This document shows, piece by piece, positions 32,450-36,661 of a DNA stretch of 64,000 nt. Both the position numbers and the translations under genes were made by a program. Origin of the DNA: an uncultured Planctomycetaceae bacterium (lineage in GTDB: Bacteria; Planctomycetota; Planctomycetia; Pirellulales; UBA1268); assembly GCA_903885565.1 (NCBI GenBank), contig CAISJI010000055.1, positions 65,563 through 129,562 on the forward strand, in the 5' to 3' direction. Below the pieces are notes generated by a model, which worked only from the letters and a program-made list of their open reading frames with translations, did no database searches and was not told the DNA's origin. How positions within the stretch are numbered: position 1 is the stretch's first letter; the number at the start of each line of letters is the position of its first letter.

Positions 32450-33355
32450 ATGCACCGGCTTCCAGGCAAATCCGTTTCAGCGTTTCAGCGATGGGCCGCT
32501 TTCGTCCTAGCGGTGTGCGCAGTCATGGTTGCCTCACTTGCAGCATCCCAGGGGCGACTGGCTGGCGGTCGGCCGGTGGTTCAGGCGTCCTCCGACTCTC
32601 GGACCATCGATTTGGGCGAGCTTGAGCCCGATGCCGAGGCCCGCCACACATTCACGCTCACCAACACCACCGCTTCAACCCTCGAAATCTTGGGGGTCCA
32701 CACATCCTGCGGCTGTGAACTGGCGGCTGTCCGAATCGGAGAGCAGATCGGGCCGGGGAAATCCCTCCCCATCGTCTATGCCCTTTCCAACCGCGGCGGG
32801 GGACTTCGCAAGGGAACGCTCACCATCGATACCTCGGCAGACGATCCCAACCTCAAGCAGATCGTCTATTCCCTGTCCGCCACGATTCCCCGGCAGATCT
32901 GGACCGAGCCCGAGACGATCGAGTTTCGCACCGGCGATGGCAGCGTGCCTCCGGAGCCGATCAGGCTTATGGTTTTCACGACTGACCCCGCCTTGGCCTT
33001 AAGCGCCTGTCGCGTCTCAACGAGTCGGCAGTTGGCGAGCGCCGAGCCGGTCGCCCCTGTCGCGCTTTCATCTCCTGAGGAATCGGAGAACGAGCCGGGA
33101 AATGCACCAGGACGGCTGTCGTTTCTGGTTCACCTCAAGGAAAATCCCCCCGTGGGGATGACGATGGACTATCTCGCTCTGGAGTTTGCAGACCGGCCCG
33201 AGGCGACGCTCAATGTGCCGGTCATTGCGGCGGTCGATACCGCTGCCAGCGTGCTGATGGTCTCACCTGACCCTGCCACTTCGAGCCCTGTCCTTATCCC
33301 AGTGCCTGCACCTGCCCCCGCCGCGCCACTAGCCCTTCCGAAGGAGATCGAATAA
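32450..33355 (+). CDS. DUF1573-type exported protein
   Basis: Signal-like N-terminus; IDLGELEPDAEARHTFTLTNTTASTLEILGVHTSCGCELAAV typical of DUF1573. Confidence 0.8.
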   Translation: MHRLPGKSVSAFQRWAAFVLAVCAVMVASLAASQGRLAGGRPVVQASSDSRTIDLGELEPDAEARHTFTLTNTTASTLEILGVHTSCGCELAAVRIGEQIGPGKSLPIVYALSNRGGGLRKGTLTIDTSADDPNLKQIVYSLSATIPRQIWTEPETIEFRTGDGSVPPEPIRLMVFTTDPALALSACRVSTSRQLASAEPVAPVALSSPEESENEPGNAPGRLSFLVHLKENPPVGMTMDYLALEFADRPEATLNVPVIAAVDTAASVLMVSPDPATSSPVLIPVPAPAPAAPLALPKEIE

Positions 33356-33357
33356 CT

Positions 33358-34362
33358 ATGACTCACACATTTTTGGTGGCCCTCCTTGGATTAACGCTTT
33401 TTGCCGCCGCGGCGGCGCCGGCTTCTGCCGCGCCAGAGATGACCGCCGACGAGATTATGGCCAAGTCGCAAGTTGCCATGGCCCCGCCGATCCAGTATCG
33501 GATGGTGATGGGGGGAGTCGATTCGATCGTTTCAATAAAGGATTTTGGGGGCGAGATCGGCATCGCGACGCGCGTCGAGACAGTCAGTCCGTACTTTGAA
33601 CAGACGGCGATCGCAACTGCCAAATACGCCTATGAATGGCAGCCGAAGATCGGCTTGGCAATCGACAAAACGCTCCTCGGGGAAGCGATGATGGCCCAGG
33701 CGGCGGCCCTCAAGCAAGCCGTTCCCGCCGGTGCCACGATGCGCCTGCTCAAGTCGGAGTTGATTGATGGCGCTGAGCACTACGTAATCGAAACAACCTA
33801 CCCGCAGGGGCTTATCGACGCCGTCACGAAGATGCTGTCGATCGCGACCCCCTTCTCAGGAAAGGTGCGGTCGTGGATCAACACCGAAAACTTCCAATTA
33901 CGGCGGATGACTAACCTAACAGGCGAGATGCAGTATCTCGATATCAAGCAGGGTATCGACCTGCCGAATGAACTCTTTCTTCCCCCAGAGGGGATGACCT
34001 TCCAAAAGCCGACGACACAAAGAAAATACCTTGAAATCATCACCAAAGCGATGACTCCGAAGCCGATACCAAGAGAAAAGATTGAGCCTCGGATCATCGC
34101 CCCTCCCTTCTGGGATCCGGTGGCGAAGACCTGGAAAGCATCGGCGCCGCCGGGCTGGGACCAGAAGGAGTGGGAAGCCCATATAGACTCGTTGCCACGC
34201 CAAACGTCAGAACTCGAAAAGCAGGCTCAACAGACGACGGAACCGACCAAGTCATACCGCTCTTGGCTGCTCTACGGAAATCTGGCGATTATCGCCGCGC
34301 TTGTGACCTATGCCTATGTCCGCAGGCGAGGAGCAAAAGCCGCCCCCGGCGATCCCAAGTAG
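33358..34362 (+). CDS. Exported protein, LolA-like fold suspected, C-terminal single TM and basic tail
   Basis: N-terminal signal (FLVALLGLTLFAAAAAPASAA), MTADEIMAKSQVAM..., C-terminal SWLLYGNLAIIAALVTYAYVRRRGAK; 2 bp after the preceding stop. Confidence 0.65.
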   Translation: MTHTFLVALLGLTLFAAAAAPASAAPEMTADEIMAKSQVAMAPPIQYRMVMGGVDSIVSIKDFGGEIGIATRVETVSPYFEQTAIATAKYAYEWQPKIGLAIDKTLLGEAMMAQAAALKQAVPAGATMRLLKSELIDGAEHYVIETTYPQGLIDAVTKMLSIATPFSGKVRSWINTENFQLRRMTNLTGEMQYLDIKQGIDLPNELFLPPEGMTFQKPTTQRKYLEIITKAMTPKPIPREKIEPRIIAPPFWDPVAKTWKASAPPGWDQKEWEAHIDSLPRQTSELEKQAQQTTEPTKSYRSWLLYGNLAIIAALVTYAYVRRRGAKAAPGDPK

Positions 34363-34460: not shown

Positions 34461-35054
34461 ATGAAGATGCGGCATAATTCATTCCGTTCCGGGCAGCTTC
34501 ACAGCTGGCTGGTTGTGAGCCTCTCGCTGCTTCTGCTCGTCGGCGAACCGGCAATCCTTCGAGCCGGTCCTTGCGAAGAAGGCTGCGAGAATACCAAAAT
34601 CGCCGCGCTGAAGGCTTGTGATACAGCTTTTCAAACCAATGAGAAACTATGTGTTACAGATACCGAAACCGCACAAACCATTTGCATTGACAATAAAACC
34701 ACCGCATTCGCAAATGCCCAAGTGGATCGCGATTCAAGCTTTTATGCAGCGGAAGCGGGGTATTTGCTCGCGAGCTCTGCTTGTCTGTACCTTCTAAACC
34801 CAGCTTGCCTTGCCACTGTTACTGCCGGTTATCTTGGCGCCCTTGGTGGGATTCATCTCAGCTATGCATCCAAACTCGCCGTAGCAGAAATCGAGTGGAA
34901 AAACTGCACAAAAAGCTGGAAGACAGCTTTCGACGGATGCCGAAAGAGGGCAGATATCGCTCGCGACGGATGCGTAAAGATAGCCATTGATGCAAACGCC
35001 GCCTGCCATAAAAAATGCGGTGGCAACGACGGCGGTAACGACGGTGGGGGCTAG
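34461..35054 (+). CDS. Exported 12-cysteine protein with mirror-symmetric Cys spacing and Gly/Asn/Asp tail
   Basis: Signal WLVVSLSLLLLVGEPAILRAGP followed by CX3C(X10C)3-X32-C-X7-C-X32-C(X10C)3X3C and GGNDGGNDGGG; translated codon by codon from the sequence. Confidence 0.75.
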   Translation: MKMRHNSFRSGQLHSWLVVSLSLLLLVGEPAILRAGPCEEGCENTKIAALKACDTAFQTNEKLCVTDTETAQTICIDNKTTAFANAQVDRDSSFYAAEAGYLLASSACLYLLNPACLATVTAGYLGALGGIHLSYASKLAVAEIEWKNCTKSWKTAFDGCRKRADIARDGCVKIAIDANAACHKKCGGNDGGNDGGG

Positions 35055-35347: not shown

Positions 35348-35518
35348 GCAGCTAGATTCCCTCGGCGGCTGTCGCCGGCAGCCGGCAGACCTCTTCGGCG
35401 TCGGTGTGCTCAATGATCGGCACTCGCCATATTCCGTTGCCGACGTCATTCGTGGCCGATTGCTCTGCGTCTGTCGCTTTCAAGTTTTTCGTGGATGAAT
35501 CACGTTGAGGAGGTAGCC

Positions 35519-36661
35519 ATGATCGGTATAAATCGCCGGAGTCAAAACCCTGTTTTCCTGTTTCATGGTGGAGCAAGCTTTATTTGGGTGCTTGTTCTGA
35601 GCGCCATGATCGCCACTGTGGCGGCGCACTCCGGGTTCGCACAGACTCCCCCGTCCGACGCGGATGTGGCCTTGATGCTGCGCCTCCGGGAGCAGGTGAT
35701 GGCGGTTCCTGAGGAACGCCGGGAAGCGGAGGGCGTGAAATTTCCGCTGGAGAGTGTCGATGCATTCCAGGATGAAACAACCAAGAAACGTGTCTATCTC
35801 TCAATCGCCGAATTGTTGGCCAAACTGGGGGACAAGCAGCAATCGCTCGCCTTTTTCGAAAAGGCAGGAACCACAGGACCCGACGAGACCGATTTGAGCG
35901 GGATCGACGTCGTTTCGCGCTCGCGTCTGCTCGACCTATTAAACGAAACGGGAAAACGGAGCGACGTCGAGGAAAAAGCGTTGGCCTTTCGCGATAAGCC
36001 GGATGTTTCCGATAACGAATATGCCGAGTTGACCTATAGGGCGGGCCGCGCATTGATCCAAGCCGGCCAAGTGGACGAGGGAATCAAACTCGGAATGGAG
36101 GCCGCAAAGAACCGCCCCTGCGAACCGGCGTATGAGTATCTGGAAAATCTCGCGGCAGATGCCTCTATTCACGGTAACAATTCTGTGGAGTTGGAAACCA
36201 ACCGCTGGATCTGGAAACACAGCGGCGCCTTCGGAGTCTCGGAGCGATTTCTGTCGAATCTCGCTCATTGTGAGGAGAATTCAGGAGATCTTGCCGCAGC
36301 GATTCGTGTTCTCGAGCAATTGACGGAGTCTCATCCAACGTCGCCCCGGCTCGGGGACCAAATTTTAAGGCTTTCGGCGCTGTACGACGAAGTCGGCGAT
36401 AAAGAGAAGTCGAAATCGCTCACCACCCGAGTCAGGGACGGGGATTTCCCGGCTGAGGTCAGGGCGCGGGCGACAAGGGCCCTGGAGTTTGACGCTCAAG
36501 GGACCCTGCCGCCCATGAATCGCCAGCCGATCAGCGCGCCGCCAGTCCGCAGGTTCCCACTTCTCCTGCTCAACGGCGGTTTGATACTCGTGATCCTAGC
36601 GCTCGTGTTAACGCGGAGAGGATGGTTCGGGGCCCGATTCGCCCGGGGGGCTTTTTTCTAG
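35519..36661 (+). CDS. Exported TPR-like protein with C-terminal TM and basic tail
   Basis: SD-like GAGGAGG upstream of ATG; helical repeat content (YLSIAELLAKLGDKQQSLAFFEKAG; LTYRAGRALIQAGQVDEGIKLGMEAA); C-terminus PLLLLNGGLILVILALVLTRRGWFGARFARG. Confidence 0.65.
   Translation: MIGINRRSQNPVFLFHGGASFIWVLVLSAMIATVAAHSGFAQTPPSDADVALMLRLREQVMAVPEERREAEGVKFPLESVDAFQDETTKKRVYLSIAELLAKLGDKQQSLAFFEKAGTTGPDETDLSGIDVVSRSRLLDLLNETGKRSDVEEKALAFRDKPDVSDNEYAELTYRAGRALIQAGQVDEGIKLGMEAAKNRPCEPAYEYLENLAADASIHGNNSVELETNRWIWKHSGAFGVSERFLSNLAHCEENSGDLAAAIRVLEQLTESHPTSPRLGDQILRLSALYDEVGDKEKSKSLTTRVRDGDFPAEVRARATRALEFDAQGTLPPMNRQPISAPPVRRFPLLLLNGGLILVILALVLTRRGWFGARFARGAFF

Follow-up and report, generated by a model that had tools for sequence, protein, structure and literature searches.

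The open reading frame at positions 34461–35054 (+ strand) of the window, which is the whole 64,000-nucleotide stretch of planctomycete DNA analysed here, raises the question of what fold and what role might go with twelve cysteines placed in mirror symmetry. Its translation (197 aa plus stop codon) has Cys at residues 38, 42, 53, 64, 75, 108, 116, 149, 160, 171, 182 and 186. The palindromic spacing 4,11,11,11,33,8,33,11,11,11,4, described in a sequence-only reading of the locus, was recovered from this translation, with a sum of 224 for all six mirror pairs. When twelve cysteines were placed at random positions, six mirror pairs arose in 0 of 20,000 trials; with the set of spacings fixed and their order permuted, the exact palindrome of this window-type ladder had P = 0.0014. 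The empty 11th positions inside the 33-residue gaps are A86, A97, A127 and K138, so that three of four are Ala, in line with the earlier remark on small residues at intervening positions, and the three Ala are invariant across five homologues. Residues 1–35 (34461–34565, +) form a putative Sec-type signal segment with the hydrophobic stretch WLVVSLSLLLLVGEPAILRA upstream of the first Cys, ending in a GExAILxAG motif conserved in five homologues. The protein closes with the Gly/Asn/Asp tail GGNDGGNDGGG (35019–35051, +), which is predicted to be disordered (pLDDT <50) and is not conserved, as tails vary among relatives. Third codon positions of the hairpin gene have a GC content of 0.51, versus 0.65–0.79 in its neighbours.

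The genome of the window contains a second copy of the cassette on contig C141 with a hairpin paralogue of 50% identity, and three more genomes from the same family carry relatives. Full-length identity of these four proteins to the window protein is 41–50%. The expectation that homologues would keep the cysteines held: 12 of 12 are invariant in the five proteins, while the rest is conserved down to approx. 40% identity. Within the hairpin, insertions and deletions were confined to two places, a single residue between C38 and C42 and three residues in the tip region, which leaves the register of the arms intact. Two of the relatives (L008 and L010) start with CX2C, and their outermost pair is one residue off the mirror register while the other five are exact. 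The NG86 method gave dN/dS values of 0.50/0.97 for the window protein versus its paralogue and 0.28/0.51 for L008 versus L010, and YN00 gave 0.63/0.55 for the former pair; the ratio is not firm, as YN00 was unstable across several pairs. Conserved homologues, NG86 dN below dS and the invariant cysteines together mark the reading frame as a real gene, judged from sequence comparison.

The mature protein was modelled as a monomer with AlphaFold2 from an input of four sequences. The model had a mean pLDDT of 88.8, a pTM of only 0.60 and a disordered tail. Helices were predicted for mature residues 2–76 and 79–151 (full-length 37–111 and 114–186). They correspond to arm A (residues 38–111; 34572–34793, +), with Cys 38, 42, 53, 64, 75 and 108 and block pLDDT values of 86–95, and to arm B (residues 114–186; 34800–35018, +), with Cys 116, 149, 160, 171, 182 and 186. 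The turn falls at residues 112/113 and the mirror centre of the cysteines at 112. This prediction agrees with the proposal of an exported protein of two long antiparallel helices that turn at LYLLNPA. Two helices of approx. 73 residues joined at 112/113 pair residue i with residue ∼224-i, and the mirror cysteines would thus face each other. The distances C42–C108 and C116–C182 are both 66 residues (6 × 11), and 11 residues amount to 3.06 helical turns. A Foldseek search with the model returned no significant match (best E-value 0.15 in the PDB and 0.016 in BFVD).

The hairpin gene is preceded by two genes on the same strand. The first one (32450–33355, +) encodes an exported, Ig-like DUF1573 protein with an SCGC motif (Pfam PF07610, E = 6e-11) that passes the curated cut-off with 42.7 versus 26.1 bits. 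DUF1573 is a general family and not specific to this operon. After a gap of 2 bp follows gene B (33358–34362, +), whose exported product of 334 aa has a transmembrane segment at the C-terminus and a basic tail; 98 bp separate gene B from the hairpin gene. Gene B had no match in Pfam, NCBIfam or a search of PDB sequences; its LolA-like character is a sequence impression only, with an AlphaFold2 pLDDT of 39. It is 59–74% identical among close relatives and thereby better conserved than the hairpin protein. The order DUF1573–gene B–Cys protein is common to L008, L068, L069, L070, L071 and L113, and a CxC motif is present in all nine aligned DUF1573 copies of the operon. A selenoprotein form of DUF1573 is reported in which the motif reads UGC (PMC9312934; PMC13188914), which suggests redox chemistry. 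One genome (G025) has the DUF1573 gene and gene B, with the hairpin gene absent downstream. An Rfam search gave nothing specific. In two relatives, a shortened second copy of gene B follows immediately 3' of the hairpin gene (L008:2656-3408 and L010:2983-3513); these copies look as though the cassette duplicates and then decays. In three loci of one genus (L008, L010 and L068), the direct neighbours of the operon look like genes for type IV pilus ATPases and PilC, a likeness read from the translations only; no such neighbours were seen at the window operon. A TPR protein with a signal segment and a C-terminal membrane segment is encoded further downstream in the window (35495–36661) and is outside the conserved operon in relatives.

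In a blind test, gene B was used as sole query against 74 genomes of the family and divergent operons were found in G063, G044, G055 and G048. In the first three, the third operon gene encodes an exported protein with a different palindromic ladder, namely 33,11,22,22,22,11,33 (L069, three extra Cys ignored), 33,11,22,12,22,11,33 (L070) and 33,11,22,14,22,11,33 (L071, one extra Cys ignored). The same query against 248 genomes of the order revealed operons in G542, a member of another family, and in G568; the contigs of G048 and G568 end before the third gene. A phylum sample of 249 genomes yielded no further operons. In G542, the third gene has the ladder 4,11,11,11,11,11,18,12,18,11,11,11,11,11,4. 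Counted from the tip Cys, rungs are located at 0, 33, 44, 55, 66 (and 70) residues in the window type, at 0, 22, 33 and 66 in the second type (33,11,22) and at 0, 18, 29, 40, 51, 62, 73 (and 77) in the third type (G542). Arms of the second type span 66 residues from base to tip like those of the window protein, with other rungs filled, and the spacings 4, 11, 18, 22 and 33 are all near whole helical turns. With spacings fixed, the palindrome had P = 0.0095 for the second and 0.0005 for the third type. The relatives contain 8–16 Cys with a tip Cys gap of 8, 11, 12, 14 or 22 residues.

Each new ladder type would have required a coordinated change in both arms. Such mirror-paired shifts of rungs are expected if the cysteines of an antiparallel hairpin face each other and are bonded, and they constitute the strongest evidence for the facing arrangement that had been proposed from the window protein. 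The three types are not fully independent, being related through operon position. Gene B is 26–36% identical between types. The hairpins themselves are only weakly similar in sequence, with between-type E-values that come from a six-sequence database, so that operon order is the main argument for their kinship, ahead of alignment. The hairpin protein itself had no match in Pfam (E < 1), NCBIfam, PHROGs or PDB sequences, and the family was not described in papers on planctomycete helical hairpins or DUF1573 among the openly licensed literature. The protein is not alone, however: it is one member of a small family in which three or more kinds of ladder occur.

Taken as a whole, the gene probably encodes an exported, rigid antiparallel hairpin rod on an 11-residue lattice that is accompanied by a conserved operon. 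The rod would have arms of approx. 73 residues and ∼11 nm in length (1.5 Å per residue) with up to six mirror disulfides, the facing cysteines presumably being bonded. A known design of disulfide-stapled helical hairpins is extended by this protein. The closest system is that of the alpha-hairpinins, which likewise consist of antiparallel helices with one CX3C per arm, pair Cys1–Cys4 and Cys2–Cys3 in mirror fashion and are partly made as tandem precursors (PMC7191063). In the alpha-hairpinin EcAMP1, Cys7–Cys29 and Cys11–Cys25 are paired (PMC7191063); both sums are 36, and the same sum rule thus applies as in the hairpin protein. The cysteine positions of the latter are compatible with this pairing and its predicted fold is an antiparallel helix-turn-helix. 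However, alpha-hairpinins are short plant antimicrobial peptides with four Cys and a short loop, whereas the window protein has twelve Cys, arms of approx. 73 residues, 139 residues between the terminal CX3C motifs and a place in a bacterial operon. No sequence similarity between them was found. By analogy, the protein would work like a much-extended alpha-hairpinin outside that family.

Cysteine-lined four-helix copper-storage proteins are a model for another reading, according to which the facing cysteines are metal ligands (for Zn or Cu) or remain reduced, perhaps with four Cys per rung in a dimer. DsbB (PF02600) and VKOR (PF07884) both went undetected in the window genome, which is 95% complete; this would suit reduced cysteines, and a dimer could bring four of them to each rung. 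Yet the protein is exported, its rungs are 11 residues (∼16 Å) apart so that no Cys clusters form along the helix, and it matches no Pfam family at E < 1. Moreover, the mirror rule is shared by alpha-hairpinins, whose cysteines form disulfides (PMC7191063). Metal-bound or reduced cysteines appear improbable. The window genome, in which DsbB and VKOR were not detected, encodes two exported proteins of 12–13 Cys.

A periplasmic chaperone-like hairpin that shields hydrophobic clients by its tip or helices was considered improbable as well. It would resemble the small Tim proteins, chaperones whose two helices carry twin CX3C motifs (PMC12114033), and the tip of the hairpin protein is hydrophobic. 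Tim9/Tim10 and the twin CX9C (CHCH) proteins share with it two helices stapled by mirrored Cys pairs (PMC12114033), but they are mitochondrial, are built as CX3C-X15/16-CX3C or CX9C with two disulfides per hairpin and do not possess an 11-residue ladder. The spacings of the hairpin protein are 11 and not the 10 of CHCH proteins, and the small Tim spacing is not present either. No Pfam match relates its sequence to either group, and its CX3C motifs are at the free ends, distant from the turn.

A homodimer, in which two uninterrupted long helices run antiparallel and residue i pairs with residue 224-i of the partner chain, would explain the cysteine pattern equally well, as this pattern alone fits intra- and intermolecular mirror pairing. 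The centre, however, usually bears Pro or Gly and absorbs the length variation (8, 11, 12, 14 or 22 residues), and AlphaFold2, albeit in a monomer model, put a turn there, which makes such a dimer very improbable.

Around the turn, residues 99–137 (34755–34871, +) form a charge-free stretch of 39 residues, and stretches of 37–48 residues are found in eight of nine relatives. The description of the tip as hydrophobic and membrane-inserting was upheld in part: the tip is indeed charge-free in most members, but the hydrophobicity of each arm is borderline for a transmembrane helix and the tip of L070 is charged, so that hydrophobicity is not obligatory. Judging by its conserved Cys pair, the tip is probably located in an oxidising compartment and not in the cytoplasm. 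The suggested bacteriocin or pore-forming toxin that inserts this uncharged tip into a target membrane was abandoned as highly improbable despite a generic Foldseek likeness to AhlB and similar helical pore formers (E ∼0.4, not significant), because the gene is chromosomal and narrowly distributed in a conserved operon with two exported partners, the DUF1573 protein and the membrane-anchored gene B product, no immunity-like gene was recognised, no relative was detected in the phage and plasmid collections searched, and L070 has its charged tip.

The tentatively favoured function of the hairpin rod, which is presumably bonded, would be that of a stalk or spacer in the envelope, with the uncharged tip docked in a membrane or in a partner. 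It is also possible, with more doubt, that the operon partners aid in hairpin folding and tip handling: the CxC-bearing DUF1573 protein would help to make or reshuffle disulfides, and the membrane-anchored gene B product would hold or escort the hydrophobic tip. A broader version, which is rather unlikely in all its parts, would be a modular zipper scaffold with rungs gained and lost in mirror pairs, DUF1573 as disulfide catalyst in a genome where DsbB and VKOR were not detected, and gene B handling the tip. The hairpin is apparently a natural long two-helix rod with regular cross-link rungs, in which the covariation of Cys pairs is visible by eye. Its spacing rule would be of use in the design of disulfide-zippered helices, and an unnamed family of envelope proteins would become open to testing. 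The protein would also pose the question by which route 12–16 Cys are oxidised in bacteria in which DsbB and VKOR go undetected.

Hairpins of a similar design occur in other planctomycete families, where long exported proteins consist of tandem C-x3-C-x10-C-x(7-11)-C-x10-C-x3-C units. L050 (G213:C145), L052 (G467:C764) and L053 (G461:C738) are ∼700–1050 aa long, and 34 short units were taken from them; no Pfam family covers these units. Like the window protein, they are exported and palindromic with 11-residue rungs (4,11,10,11,4 or 4,11,11,11,4 within 39–43 aa). Unlike it, they have many units per protein, Pro-rich linkers and, in L052 and L053, dockerin-like repeats at the end. Neither DUF1573 nor gene B was near them in the loci examined. 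The short tandem units are built on the same mirror rule, a likeness in design and not an established ancestry. A profile of the short units had strong matches in only two of 297 genomes. A six-Cys DNA pattern was run on 395 genomes and gave mostly low-complexity noise, with the reversed control matching too; only in-frame tandem hairpin proteins and the single short hairpin of G437, which is followed by a dockerin-like region, were kept. With a four-Cys pattern in eight genomes, no more convincing ladder proteins were seen by eye among the matches listed. L006, L007, L018 and L019 were judged to be chance matches. L013 was rejected as a family member (weak match with E = 0.002, unequal arms, no gene B nearby). 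The exported L013/L072 (G351:C2) shows a CX3C, a long Cys-free arm, a tip Cys pair, a second arm and another CX3C and is possibly a ladder-less analogue. Further exported tandem short-hairpin proteins are encoded on G281:C40 and G213:C58.
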